NCBI GenBank assembly: GCA_024398955.1
Contig: JAKSIG010000001.1
Location: 1 to 64,000 of the forward strand
DNA from: Fibrobacter sp.
Lineage (GTDB): Bacteria > Fibrobacterota > Fibrobacteria > Fibrobacterales > Fibrobacteraceae
Direction of reading: 5' to 3'
DNA length: 64,000 nucleotides
This document shows positions 7,676 to 41,735 of this stretch, one piece after another; the stretch's first letter is position 1; each line of letters begins with the position of its first letter. Position numbers and translations under genes: made by a program. The notes beneath the pieces were generated by a model. The model worked only from the letters and a program-made list of their open reading frames with translations, made no database searches and was not told where the DNA came from.

Positions 7676-7747
7676 GATGAATGTCTTGCAAAAACCCCAA
7701 CACTTACAACGAGTGCCGGGGATTTCTTCGTTAATGCTCGTTGAATC

Positions 7748-8974: not shown

Positions 8975-9038
8975 GGCTGTAAAAATAGAAATTGAAATTA
9001 TAAAAATTGCGGTGGAAGTCCTTCAGTGAGTAGTTTTC

Positions 9039-9046
9039 TATATTTG
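9039..9046 (+). promoter_or_regulatory. TATATTTG box ahead of the FISUMP gene
   Basis: This is the same 8-base box as in the btuB promoter, 28 bases before the start codon at 9075. No clear upstream TTTG element at 19-20 bases is visible. Confidence 0.35.
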
Positions 9047-9074
9047 TTTTCTGTAAAATAAAAGGGTTATTGGT

Positions 9075-10514
9075 ATGGTTTATAATTACAAAAAAGTTTT
9101 TCTTATTGCGGGGCTGGTGTCGATGCTATCTGTGTCTGCCTTTGCCCAGCAGGAACTGCGCGATGCTGTAGATGCGGGCGACGTGGCTACGGCTCAGAAA
9201 ATCGTAAAGAAAGGTGCTGCAGAGGAAATCTATTGCGGCGAACTTTCTGCAAACGATGCCGTAAAGGTTTACGAAAGAATTTTCAAGGCCATGCCTGCGG
9301 AATCCTTTGAAAGTTGCCCCAATCAGTTCGCCTATGGCTATGGAGCAAAGGTCTGTTCCAATGGTAAGGAAATGGAAACCTGCCTTAAGGTTTCTAACAA
9401 GCTGATTGCCGATGCGACTGCCGGTAATTCCAACGCCATTGATGCACTCGGTGCCGTTACAAAAGCAGCCCTTAAGACAAAGGCCTTTGCAAAGCCTGTC
9501 AAGGAACAGGTGGATACTTCTCTTTGGGTTCCCTGTGCCAAGAAGGGCAAGGCTCGCGAGGCCTGTATTGAAGAATGCTGGGCCCAGGCAGATACTTTGC
9601 GCGGTGTAGATCGCAAGCCTGTCTGTGATGCTGCTCCCGAACATTATGTGGATACGGTCATTTCTGTATCCAAGCCATCGCCACTCTATGAGGCTCTTCG
9701 CAATGGAATTGTAGATGGTTTCTGGAAGGTACCCATGGCTGCTGCGGAATCCTTTGCGAAACTTTTACAGGCTAATGCCAAGGGGCTTTCTGTCGCTGAT
9801 ACTTCCATTGTGAACATTGCCTATGTCAACCGTTGGGCCGATGCCCATAAGGCAGATAGCACTGCACTGCCAGGTGGCCAGCTGTTCCGTTTCTGCTATA
9901 TGTGGCAACCTAAGGTGGATTCCATCCTTGCCTCTAAGGGCTTTGAAACCCGCTGCCCTGTGTTTGAAGTCTTTACCGACCCTCGCGACAGCAAGAGTTA
10001 CAAGGTCAAGGAAATCAATGGGACAAAGTGGTTTGTACAGAACCTCGACTATGTGATTGAAGAAAAGTCCAAGTGTTACGATGACGAGTCTGAAAATTGC
10101 AAGGTGTTCGGACGCCTCTATTCTTTTGATGCCGCCCAGGTGGCCTGTCCCGAGGGAACCCACCTTTCTACGGATGACGAATGGAAAATGCTGGAAGTCT
10201 ATGCTGGTGGCGCCAACGTGGCTGCAGAAAAACTTCGCAGCAATGGTTCCGATGATTACGCCTTTACGGTACTCTTCGGTGGTTACATCAATAAGAACAA
10301 CATTTCTGTTATTCAAGGCGAAGGGGCCTACTTCTGGACCGATGCCGATGTAGGCGATGGTCGTGGGGTTGCTCGCTCCATGTTCAACACTGATAAGGAC
10401 GTTTCTTCGATGCCTGTGGACAAAGGCTTTTCGATGTCAGTGCGATGTGTTGTAAATACCGTGGTTAGTGGCGGCGAAGAAAATGCAACAGAAGAAATCT
10501 CTGCCGAAGAGTAG
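9075..10514 (+). CDS. Exported FISUMP-domain protein
   Basis: This is a secreted or periplasmic protein of 479 residues with a signal peptide ending near residue 24 (SAFA before QQEL). The middle part is Cys-rich and helical, with no domain I recognise. The last 150 residues or so form a FISUMP domain: the KWFVQNLDY strand, the CPEGTHLSTDDEWKML segment, an FGGYI strand and the closing SVRCV. This domain is greatly expanded in Fibrobacter and its function is unknown. The gene stops 3 bases before epmA starts, so the two are probably co-transcribed, although no functional link is evident. Confidence 0.8.
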   Translation: MVYNYKKVFLIAGLVSMLSVSAFAQQELRDAVDAGDVATAQKIVKKGAAEEIYCGELSANDAVKVYERIFKAMPAESFESCPNQFAYGYGAKVCSNGKEMETCLKVSNKLIADATAGNSNAIDALGAVTKAALKTKAFAKPVKEQVDTSLWVPCAKKGKAREACIEECWAQADTLRGVDRKPVCDAAPEHYVDTVISVSKPSPLYEALRNGIVDGFWKVPMAAAESFAKLLQANAKGLSVADTSIVNIAYVNRWADAHKADSTALPGGQLFRFCYMWQPKVDSILASKGFETRCPVFEVFTDPRDSKSYKVKEINGTKWFVQNLDYVIEEKSKCYDDESENCKVFGRLYSFDAAQVACPEGTHLSTDDEWKMLEVYAGGANVAAEKLRSNGSDDYAFTVLFGGYINKNNISVIQGEGAYFWTDADVGDGRGVARSMFNTDKDVSSMPVDKGFSMSVRCVVNTVVSGGEENATEEISAEE

Positions 10515-10517
10515 TCT

Positions 10518-11495
10518 ATGAACGAGAATCAGCGCCACTTTGCTCCTACATGTTCTCGTGAGAATTGGCTCAAGCGCCAGGCTCTCATGAACAAGGTCCG
10601 CAATTTTTTTACGAGCCGTAATTCACTTGAAGTTGAAACGCCCACCCTTTCTAATGCAGGTGGTACCGATCCCCAGCTGGATTATTTTCAGGTAGGTGTA
10701 GAAGGCGAGCCTCCACGCTTTATGATGACCAGCCCCGAATTTCACATGAAGCGTTTGCTGGCTGCTGGCTTTGGCGATATCTTCCAGATTACAAAGTCTT
10801 TCCGCAAGGATGAATTCGGTAGCCATCATAACAATGAATTCAGCATGGTGGAGTGGTACCGTGTTGGCTGGCCTCAAGAAAAATTGATGGACGAGGTGGA
10901 AACTCTCGTTAGCGAAATTCTTGGGACTCCGATTAACGCTCGCCGTACCCGCTGGATCGACGCCTTTAAAAATTACGCAGGAGTTGATCCGGTCAACTGC
11001 GCGCTTGAGGATTTTGCTGCAGCCTGCAAGGTTCGTGAAATTCCCGTTCCCGAAGGTTGCGAAAGCATGCCCCGTGAGGAATGGTGGGACTACCTGATGG
11101 TCTTCGTTATCGAACCCGCTCTCGCTAGCAACGGACCTGAGTTTATTCTGGATTACCCGCCCTCTCAGGCGGCGCTTGCGCAGACTTACGTTGATGCAGA
11201 CGGCCTTACCTGGGCCAGGCGTTTTGAACTTTTTGTAGATCAGGTGGAGCTCTGCAATGGTTATACGGAGTTGACCGATGCCGCAGAACAGCGACGCCGT
11301 TTTGCCGCAGACCTAGAAATTCGCAAGCAGATGGGAAAACCCTTGCCGCCCATAGATGAACATTTCCTTGCTGGTCTTGAGTCTGGAATGCCTGCCTGTT
11401 CCGGAGTGGCTTTGGGGCTGGATCGCCTGTTCATGCTGGCTATGGGCAAAAGCGAAATTTCTGACGTGATTCTGTTTCCCAGTCCTATTGCCTAG
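10518..11495 (+). CDS. epmA: Elongation factor P (R)-beta-lysine ligase EpmA
   Basis: The product is a class II lysyl-tRNA-synthetase-like enzyme of 325 residues without the N-terminal anticodon-binding domain. This is the mark of EpmA (PoxA/GenX), which attaches beta-lysine to elongation factor P so that ribosomes pass proline stretches. Class II motif 2 is seen as ITKSFRKDEFGSHHNNEFSMVEWYR, given here only as a pointer to residues about 90-115. Motif 3 is GVALGLDRLFML near the C-terminus. EpmB and EF-P genes are not in this window. It follows the FISUMP gene by 3 bases. Confidence 0.9.
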   Translation: MNENQRHFAPTCSRENWLKRQALMNKVRNFFTSRNSLEVETPTLSNAGGTDPQLDYFQVGVEGEPPRFMMTSPEFHMKRLLAAGFGDIFQITKSFRKDEFGSHHNNEFSMVEWYRVGWPQEKLMDEVETLVSEILGTPINARRTRWIDAFKNYAGVDPVNCALEDFAAACKVREIPVPEGCESMPREEWWDYLMVFVIEPALASNGPEFILDYPPSQAALAQTYVDADGLTWARRFELFVDQVELCNGYTELTDAAEQRRRFAADLEIRKQMGKPLPPIDEHFLAGLESGMPACSGVALGLDRLFMLAMGKSEISDVILFPSPIA

Positions 11496-11498
11496 TTT

Positions 11499-12017
11499 TT
11501 ACTTCAGCAGCTTTTCGACGGCTTTCTGCATCTCTTTTTTTTCGAAGATGCCCACATTCACTTTTACGATACTGTCCTGTTCGTTGACCAGGTAGCTTAC
11601 CGGCAGTACTCCTGGGTTTCCCAGCGCGTTCATGATGTCGTAGTTCCAGTGAATCATGGGCCAGGGGAGATTTGCCTTTTTTTTGTAGCGAGCGGCGACT
11701 GCAGGGGAGTCGTCTTCATTGATCATTAAAATTTCAAGCCCCTGATCCTTGTAGCCAACAGAAAGTTCCTTAAGAAGAGGGACTTCCGCTTGACATGCGG
11801 GGCACCAGGAGGCTGTTAAAACGATGAGCGTTGCCTTGCCCTTGTGGGATCTGTAGCTTGTAATGTCTGCCTTGTTTTTTTTTGAGGAGACCTTTTCGTT
11901 AATCAAAATTCCCTTAAAATCTGCAATTTTTGTAGGAATTGCCTGAAATTCCTGCTGACCACAACCTGCCAGAAGGAGGAATAATCCCAAAATTCCTATA
12001 AAACCCAGTTTACCCAT
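11499..12017 (-). CDS. Thioredoxin-fold lipoprotein, TlpA/ResA-like
   Basis: This lipoprotein of 172 residues is anchored by Cys19 of the lipobox LLAGC. A thioredoxin fold follows, with the redox pair Cys72 and Cys75 in the motif WCPAC and the cis-proline strand VLPVSYLV. It probably keeps periplasmic cysteines reduced or supports cytochrome maturation. ATG 12017 is chosen because it starts the signal peptide; an upstream start at 12113 would add 32 Lys- and Phe-rich residues and run into pilT on the other strand. It converges with epmA with only 3 bases between them. Confidence 0.85.
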   Translation of the reverse strand: MGKLGFIGILGLFLLLAGCGQQEFQAIPTKIADFKGILINEKVSSKKNKADITSYRSHKGKATLIVLTASWCPACQAEVPLLKELSVGYKDQGLEILMINEDDSPAVAARYKKKANLPWPMIHWNYDIMNALGNPGVLPVSYLVNEQDSIVKVNVGIFEKKEMQKAVEKLLK

Positions 12018-12102
12018 CTTATGTCTATTAAAATAGCGTTTTTTTTTGTTTTTGAAAAAATGAAAGTGAAATCTTTCCCTGCATAATGTTATATTCTTTG
12101 GT

Positions 12103-13170
12103 ATGGCATACAATATTCAAGATCTTCTCGCAGAAATGGTTAAGCGTGGCGCTTCTGACTTGCACATTACTGCAGGCGCCCCTCCGTTAATTCGTCTTCA
12201 TGGCAAGTTGACTCCGATCGGAGAAAACAAGCTTAAACCAGACGAAACCATGCGAATGACTTATAGCCTTATGAACGAAGGCCAGAAAAAGTCTTTTGAA
12301 CAGAATAAGGAATGTGACTTTTCTTTCGGTATTGCAAACCTAGCCCGATTCCGTGCTAATGCGTATCTTCAGCGTGGTTGCGTGGCTTTGGCTCTCCGTA
12401 TTATTCCTCTTGATATCAAGACCTTTAAGGAATTGGGCCTGCCTAAGATTATGGCGGAGTTTACGACCCGTCCTTCTGGCCTTGTGCTGGTGACTGGTGC
12501 TACCGGTTCCGGTAAGTCCACCACCCTGGCCGCAATGATCGACAAGATCAACAAGGAACGTCACGACCACATCTTGACGGTAGAAGACCCTATCGAATTC
12601 TTGCACAAGCATCAGAACTGCATGATCAACCAGCGCGAAGTGGGTAGCGATACAAACAGCTTCGCCAACGCTCTTAAGATGGCCCTCCGTCAGGACCCGG
12701 ACGTTGTGTTGATCGGCGAAATGCGTGACTTGGAAACCATTCGCGCTGCTCTTACCATTGCAGAAACGGGCCACTTGGCCTTTGCAACTTTGCACACCAA
12801 CTCTTGCGTACAGACAATCAACCGCGTGGTGGATGCCTTCCCTAAGGGAGAACAGCAGACGGTGCGTACTCAGCTTTCCTTTGTGCTTCAGGGCGTTATA
12901 TGCCAGACCCTGGTGCCCAAGATTGGCGGTGGCCGTGTCATGGCATACGAAGTCATGAACGTTACTCCGGGTATCCGCGCCCTGATTCGTGACGACAAGG
13001 TGCATCAGATTGAATCCATGATCGAAATCGGCCAGAAGTTCGGCATGAACACCATGAACATGTGCTTGTGCGATCTGGTTAAGAACCGTAAGGTGGACCG
13101 TTTCGAGGCCTTGTCCCGTTCACCCAGTCCCGACCAGTTGGAACAGCTGTTCGTGAAGGAAGGAATCTAG
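12103..13170 (+). CDS. pilT: Type IV pilus retraction ATPase PilT
   Basis: This hexameric motor of 355 residues pulls type IV pili back into the cell. All family motifs are intact: the N-terminal GASDLHITAG strand, Walker A GATGSGKST (132-140), an Asp box, Walker B VVLIGEMRD with its catalytic Glu, the His box TGHLAFATLHT, and the C-terminal GIRALIRDDK helix equivalent to AIRNLIRE. It runs 6 bases ahead of pilC. This complete enzyme is a useful yardstick for the two degenerate relatives at 26524-29180. The ATG has no Shine-Dalgarno sequence and lies 2 bases after a TTTG. Confidence 0.97.
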   Translation: MAYNIQDLLAEMVKRGASDLHITAGAPPLIRLHGKLTPIGENKLKPDETMRMTYSLMNEGQKKSFEQNKECDFSFGIANLARFRANAYLQRGCVALALRIIPLDIKTFKELGLPKIMAEFTTRPSGLVLVTGATGSGKSTTLAAMIDKINKERHDHILTVEDPIEFLHKHQNCMINQREVGSDTNSFANALKMALRQDPDVVLIGEMRDLETIRAALTIAETGHLAFATLHTNSCVQTINRVVDAFPKGEQQTVRTQLSFVLQGVICQTLVPKIGGGRVMAYEVMNVTPGIRALIRDDKVHQIESMIEIGQKFGMNTMNMCLCDLVKNRKVDRFEALSRSPSPDQLEQLFVKEGI

Positions 13171-13176
13171 TAGACT

Positions 13177-14385
13177 ATGGCAGAATTTCTCTATAAAGCC
13201 ACCAACAGCGCTGGCAATAACTTTGAGGGCTCCATCGAAGCGAAGGACAAGGCCGAAGCCGAAGCCTTGCTGATGCGCCGTCGCTTGATTATTGTAAGCT
13301 TAAAGAAAAAGCCTACTGAAATCAAGATTAAGTTTGGTTCTGGCATTACGCCCGCAGACATCTCTCGCTTTACCCGTATGTTCTCTTCTATGAGTTCTGC
13401 AGGTTTGCCGATGTTGCAGTGCCTGAACATTCTGGAATCCCAGTGCGAAAACCCCGACTTGAAGGAAGTGGTCCACAAGGTGACCATGTCCATTAACGGT
13501 GGTTCTTCTTTGGCAGATGCTCTTGCACAGCACCCCAAGGTGTTCTCCACTTTGTACACCAACATGGTGGCTGCCGGTGAAGCTGGCGGTATCTTGGATG
13601 GAATTCTTGCCCGTCTTGCTGATACCCTGGAAAACGGCGAGCGCCTGAAGCGTAAGGTGAAGAAAGCCCTGACCTACCCGGTGATGTTGATTATCGTGGG
13701 TGTGTTGGTGGTGATTGCCTTGATGGCCTTCGTTGTGCCGACCTTTGCAGAGCAGTTTGCAGCATTGAATGCCGAACTGCCTATGCCGACTCAGGTGGTG
13801 ATGAACATTTCTGACTTCATCCTGAACAATGGCGTGTTCCTTGGTATGGGCGTCGCTGTCCTTATTGTGGGCTATAAAATGGCCATGAAGGTACCGAAGC
13901 TTAAGTTTGCCTGGGATGGCTTTATGCTAAAGGTGCCAAAGCTGGGAGACCTGCAGATTAAGTCTGCTACGGCAAGCTTTGCAAGAACCCTGGGCACGCT
14001 TTTGAATGCAGGCGTGTCTGTGATGGACTCCCTAAAGGTGGTTGCGTCTACCGTTTCGAACAAAGTTGTGGAAAAGGCGATTAATAAAATCGCTATCGGT
14101 ATTGCCGGTGGTAAGTCCATTGCCGATCCTATGGCAGAATGTAAGCTGTTCCCGCCCATGGTGATTCAGATGACTGGTGTGGGTGAAAAGACCGGTAATT
14201 TGGGCGGCATGCTTTTGAAGCTTGCAGACTTCTACGACGAAGAAGTGGACGCTGCAGTGGACGCCGTGGTGGGCATGATGGAACCGTTGATCATCGTGTT
14301 CCTTGGTGGCGCTGTGGGTGGCCTCCTGATTGCAATGTACATGCCGATGTTCGGTATGGGCGATGCAGTGGGTAACCAGAGCTAA
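13177..14385 (+). CDS. pilC: Type IV pilus inner-membrane platform protein PilC
   Basis: This inner-membrane protein of 402 residues has two T2SSF repeats. The first begins about residue 65 (DISRFTRMFSSMSSAGLPML) and the second about residue 265 (SFARTLGTLLNAGVSVMDSL). Each is followed by a hydrophobic segment, and a last membrane helix lies near the C-terminus. PilC couples the ATPases to the pilus base. It lies in an operon with pilT; pilB, pilM-Q and pilin genes are not in the window. Confidence 0.95.
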   Translation: MAEFLYKATNSAGNNFEGSIEAKDKAEAEALLMRRRLIIVSLKKKPTEIKIKFGSGITPADISRFTRMFSSMSSAGLPMLQCLNILESQCENPDLKEVVHKVTMSINGGSSLADALAQHPKVFSTLYTNMVAAGEAGGILDGILARLADTLENGERLKRKVKKALTYPVMLIIVGVLVVIALMAFVVPTFAEQFAALNAELPMPTQVVMNISDFILNNGVFLGMGVAVLIVGYKMAMKVPKLKFAWDGFMLKVPKLGDLQIKSATASFARTLGTLLNAGVSVMDSLKVVASTVSNKVVEKAINKIAIGIAGGKSIADPMAECKLFPPMVIQMTGVGEKTGNLGGMLLKLADFYDEEVDAAVDAVVGMMEPLIIVFLGGAVGGLLIAMYMPMFGMGDAVGNQS

Positions 14386-24509: not shown

Positions 24510-24788
24510 ATGAAAAAACTTGTGATTGTGACTTACGTGCTCCGTGGCCTGGGCTTTGTGCTTGTCCTTTTGAGTCTCTTTGGTCACAGCCTGATTTTGA
24601 ATTTGTTCCCCGGTCTCGAAGGCCAGTCTATCAATCCGATTTTCTACTCTGGAATTTTGGTGTACATGGTTGGTGCCGTTATCTATTTCTTCGTGAATAA
24701 GAAGGAAAAGGCGGAAAGGCGCCGCCGTGAAATCGAGGAAGCAGAAGAACGAGCCTTTGGCCCTCGCGATGGAGAAGAAAAATCCTAA
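24510..24788 (+). CDS. Small membrane protein of unknown function
   Basis: The protein has 92 residues with two membrane helices (about 4-30 and 42-61) followed by a charged, Arg- and Glu-rich cytoplasmic tail of about 30 residues. ATG 24510 follows GAGG by 5 bases; an upstream frame extension to 24345 overlaps a terminator and is not believed. It is the first gene of the run that continues with an ABC transporter and may be part of that membrane complex. I recognise no family. Confidence 0.6.
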   Translation: MKKLVIVTYVLRGLGFVLVLLSLFGHSLILNLFPGLEGQSINPIFYSGILVYMVGAVIYFFVNKKEKAERRRREIEEAEERAFGPRDGEEKS

Positions 24789-24825
24789 TGGGTTGAATCG
24801 TTAGGTGATTTATTCGGTTTTTGAT

Positions 24826-25737
24826 ATGATAAAGATTGAGCATTTGCATAAGACCTACCGCAGCGGTTTTTTGATGAAGCCGAAACAGGCTCTTAAGGAT
24901 GTGAGCTTTTCTGTGGAACCCGGTCAGGTTTACGGATTTATTGGCCCCAATGGGGCAGGCAAGTCAACCACTATTAAGGTCTTGACGGGTCTGTTGAATT
25001 ATGATTCCGGTTCTGTTCTGATTAACGGCGTAAGCCCGCGTGATGTGAAGAGCCGTACTTTTTTGGGGTATACTCCCGAACAGCCCTACTTCTATGATTA
25101 CTTGACTGGACGTGAATTGCTGAAGTTCTATGGAAGGCTGGTGGGTCTTGAAGGCGCAGAACTGGATAAGCGCATTCAGTGGGCACTGGAATTGCTGCAC
25201 GCAGATAAGGACTGGATCGACCGTCGCCTGCGCTCCTATTCCAAGGGCATGATGCAACGTGTCGGGATTGCCCAGGCAATTCTTGGAAAGCCGAAGCTCC
25301 TGATTCTAGATGAACCCATGAGTGGCCTTGACCCCATGGGACGTCGTGATGTTCGCGAGGCAATCCAGCAGCTGAACCGCGACGGCATTACCATATTCTA
25401 TTCCAGTCACTTGCTTAGCGATGTAGAGAGCATTAGCCATCGCGTCGCCATGATCGTAGACGGAAAGATTGTTCGCGAAGGAACCGTCGACGAGATTACT
25501 GAATCCTGCGGCGTGGAATACCATGTTCGGACCCGTCAGGCGATTCTTCAGACGGATCTGCCCGAGGGCGTTGCTCCTGCAGGACACCCTCAGGAATGCG
25601 TCTGCGCCGATGACGCTGCCCGCGACCGCCTGCTCCGCTACTGCTTAGAAAAGGGAATCGCTGTGGAACGTATGGATCACAAGCGCCCCAGCCTGGAAGA
25701 TATTTTGACAGAGGAGATTGCCCGTGCAGACGTTTAA
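24826..25737 (+). CDS. ABC transporter ATP-binding protein (ABC-2 type)
   Basis: This ATPase has 303 residues: Walker A GPNGAGKS near residue 41, Q-loop in YTPEQPYFYD, signature LRSYSKGMMQR, Walker B LLILDEPMSGLDP, and H-loop YSSHLLSDVE. The D-loop and signature resemble exporters of the Nos/Gld/CcmA-like group. The C-terminal 90 residues are an extra domain with an odd Cys/Asp stretch (ECVCADDAA). The ATG at 24826 starts the usual IKIEHLHKTY strand; a GTG at 24805 is possible. The permease gene overlaps its end. Confidence 0.92.
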   Translation: MIKIEHLHKTYRSGFLMKPKQALKDVSFSVEPGQVYGFIGPNGAGKSTTIKVLTGLLNYDSGSVLINGVSPRDVKSRTFLGYTPEQPYFYDYLTGRELLKFYGRLVGLEGAELDKRIQWALELLHADKDWIDRRLRSYSKGMMQRVGIAQAILGKPKLLILDEPMSGLDPMGRRDVREAIQQLNRDGITIFYSSHLLSDVESISHRVAMIVDGKIVREGTVDEITESCGVEYHVRTRQAILQTDLPEGVAPAGHPQECVCADDAARDRLLRYCLEKGIAVERMDHKRPSLEDILTEEIARADV

Positions 25738-26527
25738 GCATATCGGCGTTATTGCCCTCAATACCTTCCGCGAATCAATTCGCGATAAGATCCTCTATAA
25801 CATTGGCTTTCTGGCAATTGCCCTTGCCCTGTTCAGCATTGTTCTTGGCGAATGGTCTGTCTTTGACCGCTCCTACATGATCAAGTCTGTAACTCTTTCT
25901 GTGATGAGCCTGTCTGGCTTGCTGATTTCCATATTCGTGGGCATCAGTCTTGTGCAAAAGGAAATCAAGGGGCGAACAGTGCTGACCTTGTTGTCGAAAC
26001 CCATTAGCAGGGCGTCCTTTATTGTGGGGAAGTACCTTGGGCTTTTGGCGGTGGTCGCTGTACACCTGGTCTTGCTGACCTGTATTTTTTATGTGGTGCT
26101 TTTCTTGACCGGTTCAGACCCGACGTTAAGTTTGCTGAATGCGGTGTACCTGATTTTTTGTGAAATGGCTATTGTAATTTCTGTAGCCTTGCTGTTCAGC
26201 AGCTTTAGCAGCACTGTTTTGAGCGCCCTGTTTACCCTGGGTGTTTATTTTGCCGGCCACCTGAGCAATCAACTTTTGGAACAGGTCCGTTTCGCCAGCC
26301 GTATGGGCGAGATGGACGGGACTTCGACTGCAATTTTTGAAAAGGCTGCCGTGGTTATCCACGCGGTGTTCCCGGGCCTTTATCGTTATAATGTGACAAA
26401 TTATGTAGTTCATGGTTTAGCTCTTCCGGATATGTATATGTTCTGGAATACGGTTTATGCCATTGGCTACACAGGCGTTTTCTTGGCCATCGCAAGTTGG
26501 TGGTTTAGCCGGAGGGATTTCCTATGA
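25724..26527 (+). CDS. ABC-2 type permease
   Basis: The membrane protein has about 267 residues with six helices and the N-terminal amphipathic ALNTFRESIRDKILYNI segment typical of the NosY/GldF-like permeases. It pairs with the ATPase before it (14-base overlap) to form an exporter or mechanical transporter of unknown cargo. GTG 25724 is chosen because GAGGAG lies 7 bases ahead; a TTG at 25718 would be too close to it. Its stop overlaps the next ATG (ATGA), which indicates translational coupling with the PilT-like gene. Confidence 0.88.
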   Translation: MQTFKHIGVIALNTFRESIRDKILYNIGFLAIALALFSIVLGEWSVFDRSYMIKSVTLSVMSLSGLLISIFVGISLVQKEIKGRTVLTLLSKPISRASFIVGKYLGLLAVVAVHLVLLTCIFYVVLFLTGSDPTLSLLNAVYLIFCEMAIVISVALLFSSFSSTVLSALFTLGVYFAGHLSNQLLEQVRFASRMGEMDGTSTAIFEKAAVVIHAVFPGLYRYNVTNYVVHGLALPDMYMFWNTVYAIGYTGVFLAIASWWFSRRDFL

Positions 26528-28164
26528 GAAATCAGTATATGGCAAAAGTTCTCGTGCATAACAAGGTTGTGTCCGAGGAACAGGTTCAGGCCCATTGGGC
26601 CAAGGCTTCAGACCAGAAGGATATTGGTCAGGTTTTAGTAGAGGCTGGGATTTTGCAGCCGGCCGTGTATGCCAAGGTTCTTGCCTTTGTAAAGAATCTT
26701 GAGGCGAAGAATGGTGCGGCTGTCCCTGCAGAACCTGCTGCCCCAAAGCCGGCTCCCGCAGCAGCTCCTGCTGCTGCTCCGGCGGCATCCGCTGCTCCGG
26801 CCATGCCCTCGATGAGTGCAGCAATGGCTGCAAAGCCTGCAACGGGTGCAGCTCCGGCGCCTTCCGAGGAACCTGTTGGATTTCATATTGAAGGTAACAA
26901 TCCTTATGGCGAATCTGCGTCTACCACCAACATGGAAGTGGAAACGGTTGCGGGTCTCGAAGCGACCAGCATCGGCTCTGTACGTGTGCAGACGGAATCT
27001 GGAGAGGCTGAATCCGAAGAAGAAAAAGGCAAGTTGCCTTCTCGCTTTGCGGTAGCTTCAGGAGAAGGAACTCCCGTTGAGGCTCCCGAAAATATCCGCC
27101 CCATGACAACGCTCCCGCAGTTGATTGCCTTTGCTCGCAAGTTTAACGCAACGGATATCTACCTCTTTGCGGACCGTCCGGTTGTCATGCGTCAATCTGG
27201 CGCCCTGTTTGTGGCGTCAGAAGCACCTCTGGATTTGGACCGCATTAACGAACGCCTGAATGAAGCTGTTGTTGGTTTTTCTGATGGTTACAAGATTGTG
27301 GTGGGCAAGAACTTTAGCAAGACTATTGGCCTTGCCGGAGCTGGACGAGCCCGCATTACTGTTACCTGGAACGATACAACTCCCAGCATTTCTATTCGCG
27401 TGATTCCTACAGAATCTGCAAGCCTAGAAAATTTGTACTTGCCTGCATTCTGTAATCAGTTTACCGAATTGACCAGCGGTCTAGTCTTGATTGCTGGCCC
27501 TGCTGCAAGCGGTCGATCGACCACCATGACGACTTTTGCGTCTACCATTGCCGCAAATCGGAATGTGTACATTCAGACAATCGAAAAGCCTATTGAACGC
27601 CTGCTTGAAAATCCCAGTGGCGCAATTGCCCAGCGAGAAGTCGGCCTGCATGTGCGTTCCGGTGTAGAAGGCATTGAACTGGCCATGGCCAGTGGCGCCG
27701 ATGTGATTCTTTTTGATCATCTGGAATCCATGGACGAATTGAACCTGCTGCTTCGTGCTTCGAATTCCGGTGCGCTTGTGTTTGCTGTTACCGAGGGTAA
27801 TAACGTGCACGCCCTGCTTTCTCGATTGCTGGCTTCTGTGCCCGAGGCCAATCGCAATGCGTTTGCCAATACTTTGGCCGACCAGCTGAAGGGCGTCATC
27901 GTGCAGCACCTGATTCCCATTGTCCAGAATCAGGGACTGATTCTTGCGGCCGAAGCCATGAAGATGACTTCTCCCATGGCTAACTTGCTGCGACGTGGGG
28001 ATGTTTCTCAGGTTGCCGCCGCTATCAGCAGCCAGAAGGATCTTGGCATTACGTTAGATGACTCCTTGCAGAAATGCGTGGAATCTGGTTATATCGAAGG
28101 CGCCGAAGCCTGGAAACGTGCTTGCGACAGCCGCCGTTTTGCATCTTATCGCTCGATGAAATAA
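26524..28164 (+). CDS. Degenerate PilT-like ATPase with N-terminal extension
   Basis: The protein has 546 residues. Residues 1-60 form a helical domain like the start of MshEN/GspE N-domains, 70-115 is an Ala/Pro-rich linker, 120-190 is acidic, and 195-546 follows the PilT fold (FNATDIYLFAD matching GASDLHITAG, then the ATPase). Catalytic motifs have decayed: Walker A is GPAASGRST with Arg for the Lys (325-333), the Walker B stretch reads VILFDHLES where PilT has VLIGEMRD, and the His box is SGALVFAVTEG with no His. It probably binds partners rather than working as a normal motor. The start overlaps the ABC permease stop by 4 bases. Confidence 0.8.
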   Translation: MRNQYMAKVLVHNKVVSEEQVQAHWAKASDQKDIGQVLVEAGILQPAVYAKVLAFVKNLEAKNGAAVPAEPAAPKPAPAAAPAAAPAASAAPAMPSMSAAMAAKPATGAAPAPSEEPVGFHIEGNNPYGESASTTNMEVETVAGLEATSIGSVRVQTESGEAESEEEKGKLPSRFAVASGEGTPVEAPENIRPMTTLPQLIAFARKFNATDIYLFADRPVVMRQSGALFVASEAPLDLDRINERLNEAVVGFSDGYKIVVGKNFSKTIGLAGAGRARITVTWNDTTPSISIRVIPTESASLENLYLPAFCNQFTELTSGLVLIAGPAASGRSTTMTTFASTIAANRNVYIQTIEKPIERLLENPSGAIAQREVGLHVRSGVEGIELAMASGADVILFDHLESMDELNLLLRASNSGALVFAVTEGNNVHALLSRLLASVPEANRNAFANTLADQLKGVIVQHLIPIVQNQGLILAAEAMKMTSPMANLLRRGDVSQVAAAISSQKDLGITLDDSLQKCVESGYIEGAEAWKRACDSRRFASYRSMK

Positions 28165-28175
28165 GGGAGGTTGTA

Positions 28176-29180
28176 ATGGCTACTGAAATTGAATCTCTGT
28201 TGGATTACGCTCTGCAAATTGGAGCCAGTGAAGTTGTTGTTACCGAAGGCGCCCCTGCAGCTGTTCGCCTGGCAGGAAAGGTTTGCGCCATTCCCGATGC
28301 TCCTGTTGTAGAGTTTGGCGCACTGCGTGACTTTCTGGGCTCCATGGACGGCGAATCCGGATTGGTGATTGGCGGCCCCTGGTGCAATTCCCGCTGGCGT
28401 GTTCGCTATTTTCGTGCGGCGCTAGGCAATGCTGCCGTATTCCGCCCTGTTCTCGAGGAATGTCCTGATTTTAGTGCGTTGGGCGCTCCCGAGATGATGA
28501 ATGACCTGCTGGGCCTTAGTTCGGGTCTTGTCGTGTTTGGCGGTCCTGCCTGCTGCGGTAAGACAACTACTGCGACAGCTTATGTTTCAGCATTGTGCCA
28601 GTCCAAAATTTTACGCGCAAGCCTTCTGAATTCGAAAGAGGAACTTAAGGTAAAGGCCGGCGATAGCCTTGTTCTTGAAGATACTAATGGTAGTATTCAG
28701 GATAAGATTGACCAGGCTTTACGTAGCGGAACGGATCTGATATGGCTTGGCGATTTTGAAGGAATTTCGCTGATTCCCGTTCTGCAGGCTGCCGAGGCAG
28801 GAGCCCTTGTGGTAGTCAACGTTTCTGCAGGAAACACCGTTGGTGTTCTTGAGGCCTTGCTTTCATCCGAAGAATCCGGCGACCGCAACTTGGCCCGCAA
28901 TATGCTTGCCTCTGTGCTTAAGGCGGTCGTTGTACAGCGTCTGATTCCTGCGGCCGAAGGCAACGGCGCTGTTCCTGCCTGGGAAATCATGTACGGTACC
29001 CAGAATGTTGCCTCTAGAATTCGCAACGGCGAACAGTATACTTTGCCCTCCATCATTGCGGCTTCTGCTTCCGATGGAATGCTTTTGATGGATGACTGCC
29101 TTGCTGAATTGGCTAAGGCCGGCTATATCTTGCCCGAGGATGCTGCAAAGTATGTGGCAAATCCTGCACGACTGGGCTAA
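28176..29180 (+). CDS. Second PilT-like protein, partly degenerate
   Basis: The protein has 334 residues with the PilT fold over its whole length: IGASEVVVTEGAPAAVRLAGKV at the N-terminus matches the PilT opening. Walker A GPACCGKTTT (123-132) is intact, but the Walker B part is LIWLGDFEG with Asp for the catalytic Glu, the Asp-box region is much shortened, and the His box reads AGALVVVNVSA. It starts 11 bases after the first PilT-like gene with a strong GGGAGG site and is likely its partner in a mixed ring. Both differ clearly from the complete PilT at 12103. Confidence 0.8.
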   Translation: MATEIESLLDYALQIGASEVVVTEGAPAAVRLAGKVCAIPDAPVVEFGALRDFLGSMDGESGLVIGGPWCNSRWRVRYFRAALGNAAVFRPVLEECPDFSALGAPEMMNDLLGLSSGLVVFGGPACCGKTTTATAYVSALCQSKILRASLLNSKEELKVKAGDSLVLEDTNGSIQDKIDQALRSGTDLIWLGDFEGISLIPVLQAAEAGALVVVNVSAGNTVGVLEALLSSEESGDRNLARNMLASVLKAVVVQRLIPAAEGNGAVPAWEIMYGTQNVASRIRNGEQYTLPSIIAASASDGMLLMDDCLAELAKAGYILPEDAAKYVANPARLG

Positions 29181-31572
29181 TCGATTGCGCTTAAAGAAAT
29201 CGGCGGCAGTTCTTGCCGCCTGTTTGGCATTTGTCTCCATTGAAACCGAAAACGCCTTTGCGCAGGATTCGCTACAGGCTGTCGTTCCCGTAGATTCGCT
29301 CCCTTTTGACCAGCCTGCAGAAAATGCTACTGCAGGGGTGCCCTCCGTAGAAAGTCCGAAGGAGGCATTGGCTGTAGATTCTACTGTAGTAGATACAGCT
29401 CGCCAGGTTGCAACGACTCCGTCTGCAACTCCTGTCCTGCAAGATAAGAATATCAAGACCGTTCTCTACTTAAGCGGTGGTGAACGTTCCCCATGGTTCC
29501 ATTTGGGCGTCTTGTATGCCATTGAGGAATTTGGGGTTCCTGTAGATTCTGTTGTGGGTACGTCCTGGGGCGCTTGGATTGGTGCCTTGTGGGCTAAGGG
29601 AATTTCTCCCGATGAAATCCAGAGGCTGATGCTGGATTCTGCCATTGCTCCTTACGTGGGGCATGACTATTCCGGAGTTTCTTTGGATAGTGAATCTGAT
29701 TCCTATGCCTGGCCTGTATCCCGAGAGGGGGTGCCTTCGTTACGTAAGCGAATCACATTGTCGGAAGATGCTGCTGGCAATCTTGTACTGACGAGGAAAC
29801 CTCTTGATGTTGACACCTCGAGAACCCAGAAAGTTCTTGCTAAGCTTCGCCTTCAAGAAACTCTGTACCGCCAATCGGTACAGTATGTTCGTCCATTCGC
29901 CTTGCAGGTATGCAACGAAAACGCTTCGCCGGAATTGTCAGGGATTACTGTAGACAACATCATGAAGTCATTGCCCCTGTGGGGTTCTGCAACTGCAGAA
30001 AAAATGCAGGACGTGCCTGGAGAACTGTGCCCATTCTACGCCCTTCCTGCTGAAGACCGTCCCGATGAATTGGCGATTGTCGTTGTTGCCGACCCTTTCA
30101 GAAATCCTGTGGCAGGCGATTCTAAAAACAAGTTGCTTCATAAGATGAACGATGAACGTTTAACGAATCAGCCGGGGCTCGTGATTCGAGCCCATGCGAT
30201 ACAGGACACTTCTCGCAATGCCTGGATCCAGGCTGGTTTTTCTGCCATGGAGCAACGTCGTACGTCGCATGCCGTGCTAACGAATCGCAAGGTGGACTAT
30301 TCAAAAATTCGACGCGCTTCGGCAAAGCCCTGGTTCCGCTATATGCCTTCCCTGGAATATCTTTCTCCCAGGATTCACGATGCTGTAAAGACCTATTGGG
30401 TGGATTCTGATACGGGAATGACTGGGCCTCGGAATTTTGTGGCGAGAATTCAGCAAAACCCTGTGTACGATTCCTTAAACTTCTCGATGTTGCCTAGCGG
30501 CGATTTGAAAATTGAGTCTGCGTCTCTTTTGACTGTTGACGTAGCTGCAGGTGGGTTCGGCTCGAATTACTTTGGGGCTAATGCCTATGCAGAGGCGAAC
30601 CTCCGCTATGTAGACCATATAGAAATGCAGCTGATCTTGGCCGGCTTCTGGGGGAATACCTCATATGGCTTTCAGCCTAAATTGCAAATTTCGAAATTGT
30701 TCAGCAGGCACTGGAACTTGTCGTTGGGCTATGACTATCTCAAGTTGCATCCTCTAAAATCCTATAGCAACAATATAAGGCGTTCCCTAAGGTCAGATTA
30801 CGAAATTCGTAGTGACTTGAATTTGGTCATGTCCTATGATCTCGATGACCGCCAACGTATCGCAGCCGAATTCCTATTCGGTCACAGAAGTTTTAGCCTT
30901 GATCCAACATATTTTAAGGATGACGAAGTGAATACGTATCCGGTGTCGCCAATGCTGCACTATACCTTCAGTACTTCCGATGAGTCAGGCTGGTTTGCAC
31001 AAGATGGCCTTGAAGTGAACGCCCTGGCAGGAATGGAATCCATTGGCTACAGTTTTGGCATCATCGATTTGGTTCCTATTTACTGGAAACTTTTGCTGGA
31101 CCTTCAATTCGCGTTTTCTCCGAAGCCTTACTTGTCGTTTGTCGCAGGCGCAGCAGGTGGAATTGAACGTTATCACGATGATGGTTTCGGCTATGTGTAT
31201 CCAAAGTCCTTTGACTACGCTCCCTTAGATTTGGCTTACAGGCTGCATGCCGGCGCAACTCCCTGGTCTACAGAATGGTATGACCCGGAGCTGTCTTCTC
31301 ATGAGTATGGCCTGCTGCGTGCCAGCGGGAGCCTTCATGGAAAGTATTTTGGGGTTTGGCTTTTTGGAGCCTATTATCATGACTTTGAGAATAGCCCGTT
31401 GGCCTCAATGGGCAGTAACAAGGTTGTACTTGAACCTGCGCTACGTTTCGCCTACAAGTCCGTATTCGTTTATGCAGGAATGAATAGGATTGCAGAAGCG
31501 GGATCGCTATCTGATTTGACAAAGTTTGATGATTACACCTACTTTATTCGCGTCGGAAACTATTCGTTCTGA
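29152..31572 (+). CDS. Patatin-like protein fused to an outer-membrane barrel (type Vd-like)
   Basis: The protein has 806 residues. A signal peptide ends near residue 38 (AFAQ). A patatin-like domain follows (103-380) with VLYLSGGERSP and the nucleophile elbow GTSWG, Ser138. The C-terminal 400 residues are rich in alternating beta-strands and end in NYSF, as outer-membrane barrels do. This matches patatin-barrel (PlpD, type Vd) proteins. Two active-site features are altered: the oxyanion motif SGGGxRG reads SGGERSP, and no DGG/DGA motif for the catalytic Asp is seen. The start is uncertain: ATG 29152 or 29140, both inside the previous gene, so translation is coupled. Confidence 0.75.
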   Translation: MWQILHDWANRLRLKKSAAVLAACLAFVSIETENAFAQDSLQAVVPVDSLPFDQPAENATAGVPSVESPKEALAVDSTVVDTARQVATTPSATPVLQDKNIKTVLYLSGGERSPWFHLGVLYAIEEFGVPVDSVVGTSWGAWIGALWAKGISPDEIQRLMLDSAIAPYVGHDYSGVSLDSESDSYAWPVSREGVPSLRKRITLSEDAAGNLVLTRKPLDVDTSRTQKVLAKLRLQETLYRQSVQYVRPFALQVCNENASPELSGITVDNIMKSLPLWGSATAEKMQDVPGELCPFYALPAEDRPDELAIVVVADPFRNPVAGDSKNKLLHKMNDERLTNQPGLVIRAHAIQDTSRNAWIQAGFSAMEQRRTSHAVLTNRKVDYSKIRRASAKPWFRYMPSLEYLSPRIHDAVKTYWVDSDTGMTGPRNFVARIQQNPVYDSLNFSMLPSGDLKIESASLLTVDVAAGGFGSNYFGANAYAEANLRYVDHIEMQLILAGFWGNTSYGFQPKLQISKLFSRHWNLSLGYDYLKLHPLKSYSNNIRRSLRSDYEIRSDLNLVMSYDLDDRQRIAAEFLFGHRSFSLDPTYFKDDEVNTYPVSPMLHYTFSTSDESGWFAQDGLEVNALAGMESIGYSFGIIDLVPIYWKLLLDLQFAFSPKPYLSFVAGAAGGIERYHDDGFGYVYPKSFDYAPLDLAYRLHAGATPWSTEWYDPELSSHEYGLLRASGSLHGKYFGVWLFGAYYHDFENSPLASMGSNKVVLEPALRFAYKSVFVYAGMNRIAEAGSLSDLTKFDDYTYFIRVGNYSF

Positions 31573-38224: not shown

Positions 38225-38255
38225 TTGGATTTAGGGCATGTTGAATTTATATTCC
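38225..38255 (+). promoter_or_regulatory. Possible promoter of the 38283 gene
   Basis: TTG at 38225-38227, 20 bases, then TATATTCC at 38248-38255, a near match to the TATATTTG boxes elsewhere in the window. Confidence 0.35.
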
Positions 38256-38282
38256 AACTTGGATGTTTTATATGGAGACCAT

Positions 38283-41200
38283 ATGAAAAATTGGCTTGGT
38301 TTTGTGGCAGCGGCCCTTTCTATTTGTGTCATGCCTTCTTTGGCTGCATTTAGTGAAAGCAATTTTAATTATGGTGCCATGTGGGAAGGCATCAAGGATC
38401 GTTCCGACAGGGCTAGCCTTGGACTTTCCCATGTAGCCATGTATATCGGCGATGCCAATACGCAGTGGTCCGACCGTGTTAATCAACCGTATAATCCCTA
38501 TTGGGAAGCGGACATGGTCAAGTTCTGCGCCCAAAACGATATTACTCCGGTGTTTTACGCCTACGTGATTGCTGAATGGGACAAACATCTTGGCTATTCC
38601 GATTGCGATGTGGGCAGCCCGAACCATTGTACCAATGGTGCAGAAACCATACGCAATGACTGGCAGACCATTTTGTGGCGCTACGGTGAGCTGGCAAAGG
38701 GTGTTGCTTCGGACATGGGCTCTAAAAAGAATACGATTCCGTCGATCTGGCTGATTGAACCAGACTTTTATCAGTATTCAGTTTCCGGAGATAACCAGAG
38801 GGGCGGTCAGCAGTCTGGTGGTGGCATTCCTGATGCGGATTTGGCTGGTACTAAGTTCAATCAAATTGTTGCTGCCATTAAACAGCATCTTCCAAATGCA
38901 AAGATTGCCGTCGATATTTCTCCTTGGATTTCCAATCCCCAGGGCTGGTATTCCAATTTTGATGCAAGCAAGATTGACTACATGTTCACTTCTGGTGGTC
39001 GCACCGAAGGTAACAATACCAAGATCCGTTCCGAAAATAACATGACCTGGGCTCAGGCTAGCGGCTTCCTGGGAAAAAAGATTATTGCCGACGATGGTTA
39101 CGGCGTTGGTGGCGGTGCTGAAGAAAATTATAGCGATTGGCAGAATGTCAATAACTTGAAATCTCGCATTAGTGATGGTGTTATTGGTCTTACCATCAAG
39201 TCCCCAAGTGCGTCTTTCATGAATTGGACAAAGCAGAATCCTCTTTCCATTAGTTCTGGCAATTCGGGCAATAGTTCCAGCTCCTCTGCAAGGTCTAGTT
39301 CTAGCTCTGCAAAGAGCAGCAGTTCCCAGTGGCAGGGCGGTATTAGTTCTCCTTGGCAGGGGGGCATTAGTTCCCCATGGTTGCCTAGCGTTTCCTCCAG
39401 CAGCGTTGCATACTCAAACTCTGCGACGGTATCTAGTAGTTCTGCTGTTACGGGTAATTGTATAGCCTATGTGGCTGGTGCTGGTGAATATGACAAGCAC
39501 TGCTATAACTCGGGCTTGACAGGTATGGCTGTCGGAAAGTGTTATACCTTGAATCCGGAACGTTCTCCGTCTCCTCAGTGGATAAACAATAATGTGGCAG
39601 AAACTTATTGGTGGGTAGAAACTAGCTGTGGTGATGCTGTTTCCAATACGCCTGTAGTGACCGTGTTTACTCCTGCCGCAGCCAACACCACTCAGAATGT
39701 GGTAGCTGGCCAGGCCATCACTCCGATTGTGTATAACTTCGAGAATGTTAAGAGTGTGTCCGTAGCAGGCTTGCCGAAGGGCCTGAACGGAGTAATTGAT
39801 AACAATGCAAAGACGTTTACGATTTCTGGTACGGTTGATGCCGCCCTTACTGACCATGACTATGAATACACAGTGACCGTCACCGGCGTAGATGAAAATA
39901 CTACAGCCACTGGCACCATCAAGGTCGCTCACAAGCCTGTAGTGACAGTATTCAATCCCGCTGCCGCCAATACCACTCAGAATGTGGTAGCTGGTCAGGC
40001 CATCACACCGATTGTCTACAATTTTGAAAACGTGAAGGGCGTATCTGTTGCAGGCTTGCCGAAGGGCCTGAGCGCAGTTCTTAACGAAAGAGCCAAGACT
40101 TACACCATCAGCGGAACAGTCGATGCAGAACTCGGTACTCATGATTACGAATACGCCGTGACCGTGATAGGTGTAGATGAGAACAAATCCGCTACAGGTG
40201 TCATTCATGTGACTCGTGCTCCGGTCGTAACAACAGTTGCACTGACTAGCAATAATGCTGATCAGAACGTTGTCGCCGGTCAGGCAATCGATCCTATTGT
40301 TTTCCGCTATGAAAACGTGACCGAGATTTCTGTTGATGGTCTTCCGCTGGGTTTGAGTGGATCTGTGGATCAGTTGGCGGGAACTTATGTAATCAAAGGT
40401 ACTGTTGATGAAAAACTCTCAACCCGTGATTACGACTATACCGTAATATTCTTCGGTGTAGATGAAAATAAGACAGCTACAGGTTCCATCAAGGTGTTGG
40501 AACTCGAGATATCCAGCAGTTCCGAAATTCCGCCGCAGTCTTCCTCCAGCGAAGAACCAGAATTGTCCAGCAGTTCTATTGAAGTTAGCAGTAGTTCCGT
40601 TGATGAGATTTCCAGCAGCAGCGAAGAACCTGCAGTCTCTAGCTCCAGCGAAGAAGCGAACCTTTCCAGTTCTAGTGAAGAATACGTCAGCTCCTCCAGC
40701 GAAGTTCCGGAATTTTTCAGCAGTTCCGAAATTCCGCCGCAGTCTTCCTCCAGCGAAGAACCAGAATTGTCCAGCAGTTCTATTGAAGTTAGCAGTAGTT
40801 CCGTTGATGAGATTTCCAGCAGCAGCGAAGAACCTGCAGTCTCTAGCTCCAGCGAAGAAGCGAACCTTTCCAGTTCTAGTGAAGAATACGTCAGCTCCTC
40901 CAGCGAAGTTCCGGAATTTTTCAGCAGTTCCGAAATTCCGCCGCAGTCTTCCTCCAGCGAAGAACCAGAATTGTCCAGCAGTTCTATTGAAGTTAGCAGT
41001 AGTTCCGTTGATGAAATTTCCAGCAGCAGCGAAGAACCTGTAGTCTCTAGCTCCAGCGAAGAAGCGAATTTTTCCAGTTCTAGTGAAGAATACGTCAGCT
41101 CCTCCAGCGAAGTTCCGGAAATTTCCAGCAGTTCCGAAATTCCGCCGCAGTCCTCTTCCAGCGAAGAACCAGAATTGTCCAGCAGTTCTATTGAAGTTAG

Positions 41201-41735
41201 CAGTAGTTCCATTGATGAAATTTCCAGCAGCAGCGAAGCACCGGAAGTTTCCAGCAGTTCCGAAATTCCGCCGCAGTCTTCCTCCAGCGAAGTTCCGGAA
41301 ATTTCTAGCAGTTCCGAAATTCCGCCGCAGTCTTCCTCTAGCGAAGAACCAGAATTGTCCAGTAGTTCTATTGAAGTTAGCAGTAGTTCCGTTGATGAAA
41401 TTTCCAGCAGCAGCGAAGCACCGGAAGTTTCCAGCAGTTCCGAGGAACCTTCTGACTCGAGCAGTAGTTCTGAAGACGATGGTACAGAACTTGTCGTTGC
41501 AAATCGAACATCCTTCAACATTGGATTTGCCCGTAATGTCCTGACTCTCGCTTCTTCTAGAACGGCCACCTACAAGATTCAGATCTTTGACATGATGGGA
41601 CATGCTGTCGCATCCCAGAAGGAAGACGTTTCTGGTAGCTTCAGTATGAACCTTGATCATCTCAATAGAGGTAACTACCTAGTTCGCATTTCTAGCGGCA
41701 GCGAAGTTCGTACAAGTCGAATCGCTATTCGCTAA
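38283..41735 (+). CDS. Large secreted protein: unknown catalytic-like domain, Ig-like repeats, Ser/Glu repeat region, sorting domain
   Basis: The protein has 1150 residues. A signal peptide (1-22) is followed by a domain of about 310 residues that looks like a glycoside-hydrolase barrel: MYIGDANTQW, VFYAYVIAEWD, SIWLIEPDFYQYS (Asp161), AVDISPWI, KIIADDGYG. I cannot assign it to a known family. A Ser-rich linker with two WQGGISSP units follows, then a Cys-containing module (NCIAYVAGAG to YWWVETSC, perhaps carbohydrate-binding). Three Ig-like repeats (about 455-738) share VVAGQAI-PIV and an E-Y-V-GVDEN pattern. Next is a Ser/Glu/Pro repeat region (747-1060). The last 65 residues (IFDMMGHAVAS, RGNYLVRISSG) form a type IX sorting domain. 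It lies beside the GH5 cellulase and probably also acts on plant cell walls. Confidence 0.8.
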   Translation: MKNWLGFVAAALSICVMPSLAAFSESNFNYGAMWEGIKDRSDRASLGLSHVAMYIGDANTQWSDRVNQPYNPYWEADMVKFCAQNDITPVFYAYVIAEWDKHLGYSDCDVGSPNHCTNGAETIRNDWQTILWRYGELAKGVASDMGSKKNTIPSIWLIEPDFYQYSVSGDNQRGGQQSGGGIPDADLAGTKFNQIVAAIKQHLPNAKIAVDISPWISNPQGWYSNFDASKIDYMFTSGGRTEGNNTKIRSENNMTWAQASGFLGKKIIADDGYGVGGGAEENYSDWQNVNNLKSRISDGVIGLTIKSPSASFMNWTKQNPLSISSGNSGNSSSSSARSSSSSAKSSSSQWQGGISSPWQGGISSPWLPSVSSSSVAYSNSATVSSSSAVTGNCIAYVAGAGEYDKHCYNSGLTGMAVGKCYTLNPERSPSPQWINNNVAETYWWVETSCGDAVSNTPVVTVFTPAAANTTQNVVAGQAITPIVYNFENVKSVSVAGLPKGLNGVIDNNAKTFTISGTVDAALTDHDYEYTVTVTGVDENTTATGTIKVAHKPVVTVFNPAAANTTQNVVAGQAITPIVYNFENVKGVSVAGLPKGLSAVLNERAKTYTISGTVDAELGTHDYEYAVTVIGVDENKSATGVIHVTRAPVVTTVALTSNNADQNVVAGQAIDPIVFRYENVTEISVDGLPLGLSGSVDQLAGTYVIKGTVDEKLSTRDYDYTVIFFGVDENKTATGSIKVLELEISSSSEIPPQSSSSEEPELSSSSIEVSSSSVDEISSSSEEPAVSSSSEEANLSSSSEEYVSSSSEVPEFFSSSEIPPQSSSSEEPELSSSSIEVSSSSVDEISSSSEEPAVSSSSEEANLSSSSEEYVSSSSEVPEFFSSSEIPPQSSSSEEPELSSSSIEVSSSSVDEISSSSEEPVVSSSSEEANFSSSSEEYVSSSSEVPEISSSSEIPPQSSSSEEPELSSSSIEVSSSSIDEISSSSEAPEVSSSSEIPPQSSSSEVPEISSSSEIPPQSSSSEEPELSSSSIEVSSSSVDEISSSSEAPEVSSSSEEPSDSSSSSEDDGTELVVANRTSFNIGFARNVLTLASSRTATYKIQIFDMMGHAVASQKEDVSGSFSMNLDHLNRGNYLVRISSGSEVRTSRIAIR
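40524..41465 (+). repeat. Tandem 204-bp repeats coding for Ser/Glu/Pro segments
   Basis: The marker GAAATTCCGCCGCAG begins at 40524, 40728, 40932, 41136, 41262 and 41316, that is three full 204-bp units followed by shorter 126- and 54-bp units. The full units are nearly identical at the DNA level, so copy number should change easily by recombination or assembly error. Each unit encodes 68 residues of SSSS blocks separated by EE-P and EIPPQ motifs. Confidence 0.95.

Follow-up and report, generated by a model that had tools for sequence, protein, structure and literature searches.

In M. xanthus, pilin translocation is described as requiring the transporter PilG-PilH-PilI, or PilGHI (PMC3724824), which is also described as occurring with myxobacterial type IV pilus (T4P) clusters (PMC6060248). 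PilT/PilU motors (TIGR01420; PDB 6ojx, 2gsz and 9n32) and PlpD-type patatin-barrel autotransporters (type Vd; 5fqu) are two further systems with a bearing on the locus analyzed here, a run of six genes in Fibrobacter sp. (NCBI GenBank assembly GCA_024398955.1, contig JAKSIG010000001.1, positions 1 to 64,000 of the forward strand; this 64,000-nucleotide stretch is referred to as the window). With moderate confidence, we read the run as encoding one envelope-spanning accessory module for T4P biogenesis or retraction, built round a PilH-PilI type ATP-binding cassette (ABC) transporter. Judged by its motifs, the unit comprises one intact ATPase and three other large parts, all pseudo-enzymes. None of the papers searched describes this six-gene run. 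Its genes, and two from the surrounding region, are as follows.

24510–24788, plus strand: small membrane protein of 92 amino acids, which opens the conserved run; hydropathy gives an N-terminal hydrophobic stretch, a second one and a charged tail
24826–25737, plus strand: ABC ATPase, PilH-type (PF00005, 5.8e-30)
25718–26527, plus strand: ABC-2 permease (perm), PilI-type (PF12679, 5.5e-12), likely GTG start at 25724
26524–28164, plus strand: PilT-like pseudo-ATPase 1 (pt1), 546 amino acids, PilT fold
28179–29180, plus strand: PilT-like pseudo-ATPase 2 (pt2), 333 amino acids (PDB PilT 2gsz, E = 2e-26)
29137–31572, plus strand: patatin-barrel protein (pat) (PF01734, 4.8e-10; PlpD 5fqu, E = 4.8e-16)
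12103–13170, plus strand: intact PilT retraction ATPase, context (TIGR01420, 485.8 bits; cut-off 319.1)
13177–14385, plus strand: PilC platform protein, context (PF00482, 6.9e-66)

The genes and coordinates of the run given by a first-pass annotation of this DNA were correct. It had also described the genes from 24826 onward as overlapping or lying within 11 bases of each other. The overlaps were confirmed: perm starts at a GTG (25724) or a TTG (25718), ahead of the ABC stop at 25737; perm and pt1 share 4 bases (ATGA at 26524); and pat, starting at 29137 or later, overlaps pt2. The 11-base limit was too tight, as pt1 and pt2 are separated by 14 bases (28165–28178). These overlaps, together with the 14-base gap, support predicted co-transcription from the ABC gene onward. 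A promoter and terminator scan of the run gave signals at shuffle level and was uninformative. The 92-residue protein had no match in Pfam or NCBIfam; its gene lies 37 bases 5′ of the ABC gene in the window and overlaps it in many relatives.

Gene order, which the first-pass annotation had left to be checked in relatives, is conserved across the cellulose-degrading family Fibrobacteraceae. By open reading frame (ORF) mapping, the order small protein, ABC, perm, pt1, pt2, pat was identical in all 28 loci, drawn from nine genera, whose contig allowed full mapping. One further genome (G150) holds the run divided by contig ends. The flanking genes vary freely among relatives, and most of the genomes compared are metagenome assemblies. 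The 92-residue gene lies 5′ of the ABC gene in every mapped Fibrobacteraceae locus, and likewise in genera g2, g4 and g8. In g2 and g4 the locus consists of the small gene, ABC and perm, without pt1, pt2 and pat; the transporter locus of the order-level outgroup g12 also lacks these three. Within the window's own genus, pt2 was found in nearly all genomes, the exceptions (G086 and G127) each being ∼71% complete. Elsewhere in the phylum, the PilT-like pair and the patatin protein occupy separate loci with intact or nearly intact motifs. In another genome (L093, G041, 8807–14020), a very long ORF contains a stretch like the 92-residue protein, either a fusion or an ORF-calling artifact.

The ABC ATPase appears fully equipped, with Walker A, signature, Walker B and H-loop all intact. 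The first-pass annotation had left pilus control, surface export and motility open for the run as a whole; the pilus option receives independent support, as the ABC-2 pump is not a generic one. Rather, the predicted ABC pair matches the PilH/PilI type, by comparison with Myxococcota loci and not with the M. xanthus proteins themselves. These loci were selected on permease similarity alone. Searches by tblastn with the window perm and ABC sequences gave matches at all 20 of them plus three others, and identity to the Myxococcota pil-locus genes was 35–40% for perm and 42–54% for ABC, among the best matches listed. A T4P gene, for a pilin and/or a prepilin peptidase, lies close by in 20/20 of the loci and in 1/15 other windows of the same genomes (Fisher P about 6e-9, calculated by hand from loci that are not independent). 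The typical Myxococcota order is pilin, pilG-like gene, ABC, permease and pilD, which we take to be the pilAGHID arrangement of M. xanthus; the pilins were called by a motif rule that gave no calls in control windows. We know of no substrate for the PilGHI transporter.

The same association extends to other phyla, where 18 of 36 loci have T4P genes close to the transporter homologs. A GTDB genome scan recovered the same set of ATPase, permease and tetratricopeptide repeat (TPR) protein in Nitrospirota, Deltaproteobacteria, Acidobacteria, Myxococcota and others, with neighbors that include pilins, prepilin peptidase, PilB and PilC (Pfam-checked). Of 168 Fibrobacterota genomes, 148 carry perm, in almost all cases with one good match per genome. 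In the phylum's other classes, the gene directly after perm is PilG-like and encodes a TPR-like membrane protein of ∼230 amino acids. Most Fibrobacteraceae genomes carry one homolog of this gene at an unlinked position (E about 1e-7 to 1e-12), and genomes without it mostly lack the permease too. Like PilGHI, the Fibrobacteraceae system pairs an ABC ATPase with one ABC-2 permease; the two systems are homologous in sequence and, across phyla, share a third gene, the PilG-like one. Unlike PilGHI, it has an unlinked pilG and no adjacent pilin or pilD gene, and it includes two additional pseudo-PilT genes and a pseudo-patatin barrel. In the window genome, the PilG-like gene (L220, G000:C77, 8041–8901) adjoins an MlaD-like gene, as judged by inspection, and lies away from pil genes. 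The GldA-GldF-GldG gliding transporter of Bacteroidota likewise pairs a DrrA-type ATPase with an ABC-2 permease. It was rejected as an identity for the pair, the GldA model scoring 184.8 bits against a cut-off of 402.6 and GldF 19.7 against 288.5.

One PilC per genome is the rule, and most Fibrobacteraceae genomes encode no other complete T2SSF protein (each has two T2SSF domains). The full PilT that the first-pass annotation had placed at 12103 is borne out, as is the PilC gene at 13177. In the window, this pilT-pilC pair lies ∼10 kb upstream of the run; in G150, pilT-pilC starts 69 bases after the run's end. Attachment of F. succinogenes to cellulose is reportedly aided by T4P (PMC4704652). 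Four small genomes of genus g15 (G160–G163, 87–100% complete) jointly lack PilC, the transporter, the PilG-like gene, the PilT-like pair and the patatin-barrel protein; this co-loss is weak evidence, because a single clade is involved.

In PilT-family structures, the P-loop, Asp box, Walker B and His box all lie in the C-terminal domain of the same subunit. We aligned the window pt1 and pt2, with 19 orthologs of each, against the intact PilT at 12103. In pt1, Walker A reads GPAASGRST (Lys to Arg), the GE of Walker B is replaced by DH, and the TLHT His box is lost; in pt2, Walker A is intact (GPACCGKTT), GE has become GD, and the His box is lost. Among orthologs, the Lys-to-Arg change holds in nearly all pt1 proteins (one genus retains Lys), and only the most diverged genera have a pt2 without a canonical P-loop. 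The first-pass annotation had both proteins retaining the fold and pt1 without the Walker Lys, and we find the same. Its claim that neither has the catalytic Glu or the His box holds for the Walker-B Glu and the His box, which are gone from both across orthologs. It fails for the Asp-box Glu, which pt1 keeps (IEKPIE, near-invariant among orthologs); pt2 lacks both Glu residues. The lost motifs are not restored at other positions in either set of orthologs.

The core fold of PilT/PilU is nevertheless shared by both proteins, with homology over the full domain. TIGR01420 scores of 181.4 bits for pt1 and 131.7 bits for pt2 are far under the cut-off of 319.1. The pt1 protein has an extra N-terminal helical domain (residues 1–64), followed by a disordered linker (66–170) and the PilT fold (∼190–546); the best PDB match of its AlphaFold model is PilT4 (6ojx, E = 8e-32, TM score 0.91 by target). 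The fold of pt2 was assigned from its sequence (the 2gsz match listed above). In four species pairs, the most distant of which has high or saturated dS, dN/dS was 0.03–0.08 for pt1 and pt2, so they are under strong purifying selection and are not decaying pseudogenes; pat is looser, at 0.09–0.18. In genus g8 (L092, G146, 5855–12461), the gene order is kept while pt1 and pt2 fall below Pfam T2SSE detection and pt1 has no P-loop. This would be an extreme stage of pseudo-motor erosion, and the persistence of the operon despite it argues that ATP hydrolysis by pt1 and pt2 is dispensable.

Outside Fibrobacteraceae, adjacent PilT-like pairs occur with an intact short partner and a long partner that shares the N-terminal extension and has its motifs almost intact. 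Our tree groups Fibrobacteraceae pt1 with pt2 (support 96). The alternative topology, in which pt1 joins the long outgroup protein and pt2 the short one, was not rejected (approximately unbiased test, 0.25, from 2,000 replicates where 10,000 are advised), and long-branch attraction is likely in the pt1-pt2 grouping. In three outgroup genomes (L050 G157, L052 G159, L054 G155), the intact pair has a sensor kinase and an NtrC-type response regulator in its vicinity, reminiscent of PilS-PilR; a Pfam check covered both neighbors in L050 and the regulator in L052. Cyclic di-GMP binding by the pt1 N-terminal domain was considered and rejected. The single NCBIfam match was weak (19.3 bits against a cut-off of 38), Pfam MshEN gave no match among 33 members at E 0.05, and on inspection the Arg of the RLG motifs is missing from the domain.

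The pat protein consists of a signal region, a disordered segment, a pseudo-patatin domain (∼104–345), a helical segment and a BamA/TamA-like β-barrel (444–806). The barrel was assigned from the AlphaFold model (pLDDT ∼90 in the barrel), for which Foldseek matched BamA/TamA at E about 1e-9 to 1e-10 with a modest TM score by query. As in PlpD, a patatin domain precedes an outer-membrane barrel of BamA/TamA shape. Unlike PlpD, pat lacks the catalytic Asp and the oxyanion-loop Arg, and in some genera also the catalytic Ser; its predicted model shows no clear POTRA domain. The Asp (DGG) is absent in all 35 rows of alignment A1 and in g2 and g4; it is missing from every Fibrobacteraceae pat examined and from the class relative g14 as well. 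Relatives from the phylum's other families keep the oxyanion loop, the nucleophile Ser and the DGG Asp in 13/13 cases. On these residues, the patatin domain of pat is predicted to be catalytically dead. This prediction, the place of the 92-residue gene in the conserved run, the PilHI match and the separate intact loci elsewhere in the phylum go beyond the first-pass annotation. Three patatin-barrel matches carry one in-frame stop (G079:C48:8386-10788, G122:C9:1700-4042 and G148:C112:18391-20658), which may be a real interruption, a start-site effect or an assembly error. In a distant relative (L120, G029, 6075–12661), a catalytically intact patatin-barrel gene adjoins pilB, pilC and pilT.

While genomics supports the link to T4P, we infer the mechanism, including the physical association of the products, their T4P function in Fibrobacter and the roles of the dead domains. 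In the accessory module that we favor, ATP would be hydrolyzed by the ABC subunit alone, and PilHI would handle pilins or minor components at the inner membrane. The pt1-pt2 pair would hydrolyze no ATP. Most likely it would serve in the cytoplasm as an adaptor or regulator that docks on the PilC platform, at the site used by PilT and PilB, and couples the transporter to the base of the pilus. The pseudo-patatin barrel would provide the outer-membrane end, retained for binding or anchoring and no longer acting as a lipase. In such an assembly, pt1 and pt2 may form the mixed pseudo-motor ring that the first-pass annotation proposed as part of an envelope-spanning whole. Our confidence in any single mechanical detail is lower than that in the whole reading. 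A bolder version, which we think improbable, would have the dead PilT-derived ring serve PilHI as a clutch or lever acting on PilC, passing the energy of ABC ATP hydrolysis to the pilus base, with the dead patatin-barrel as outer-membrane partner; the three former enzymes would then be mechanical parts.

Several observations weigh against a T4P module. Neighborhood conservation does not prove interaction, and the Fibrobacter PilHI assignment is one by comparison with Myxococcota loci. In the window, the run is not adjacent to pilG, pilin or prepilin-peptidase (pilD) genes, and in genus g6 (G144) it lies ∼177 kb from pilC. Several members of the phylum have PilC without PilHI. Genus g4 has PilHI without linked pt1, pt2 and pat; the added genes are therefore not essential for T4P as such.

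A rival reading is a stand-alone system for envelope export or lipid handling. The ABC-2 transporter would pass a lipid, glycolipid or peptide on to the barrel, and the PilT-like proteins would be a shape-only scaffold with no part in a pilus. In its favor, the ABC-2 permeases of perm's family have many substrates, lipid binding is suggested by an outer-membrane patatin-barrel, pil clusters mostly do not include the run, and the PilG-like gene of the window genome has its MlaD-like neighbor. We regard this as possible but rather unlikely, given that the transporter is strongly neighborhood-linked to T4P genes in other phyla, that two co-opted proteins derive from T4P motors, and that the run directly contacts pilT-pilC in G150. 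On another reading, pt1 and pt2 would form a working but slowed heteromeric ATPase ring from the P-loop of pt2 and the Asp-box Glu of pt1, a PilU-like second retraction motor. The retention of these two elements, and the related adjacent pair with almost intact motifs in the phylum, would fit. With all four motifs sited in one subunit, however, a mixed ring should rebuild no site, and the g8 operon persists with its pair eroded and the pt1 P-loop lost; we consider such a motor very doubtful. That history alone accounts for the co-transcription of genes with unrelated functions seems equally remote: although conserved operons can be neutral over short times and the g2, g4 and g12 transporter loci do without the added genes, the order is constant in nine genera while flanks vary, and three proteins of two unrelated families lost catalytic residues in the same part of the phylum.

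Two further genes of the window were recorded. One encodes a 1165-residue protein with a Por_Secre_tail (type IX secretion sorting) domain (38238–41735). The other, on the minus strand (52237–56346), encodes a 1369-residue protein with a weak, below-cut-off match to the MTES_1575 nuclease domain and is a possible defense gene.

PilGHI, an ABC transporter with links to pili in many phyla, is among the least understood T4P parts. In Fibrobacter, nature has tied PilGHI to identifiable cytoplasmic and outer-membrane partners, through which its position and role become testable. The run is also a rare case in which three former enzymes of two unrelated families appear to have lost catalysis in one lineage while the proteins were retained, in bacteria whose attachment to cellulose reportedly uses T4P.

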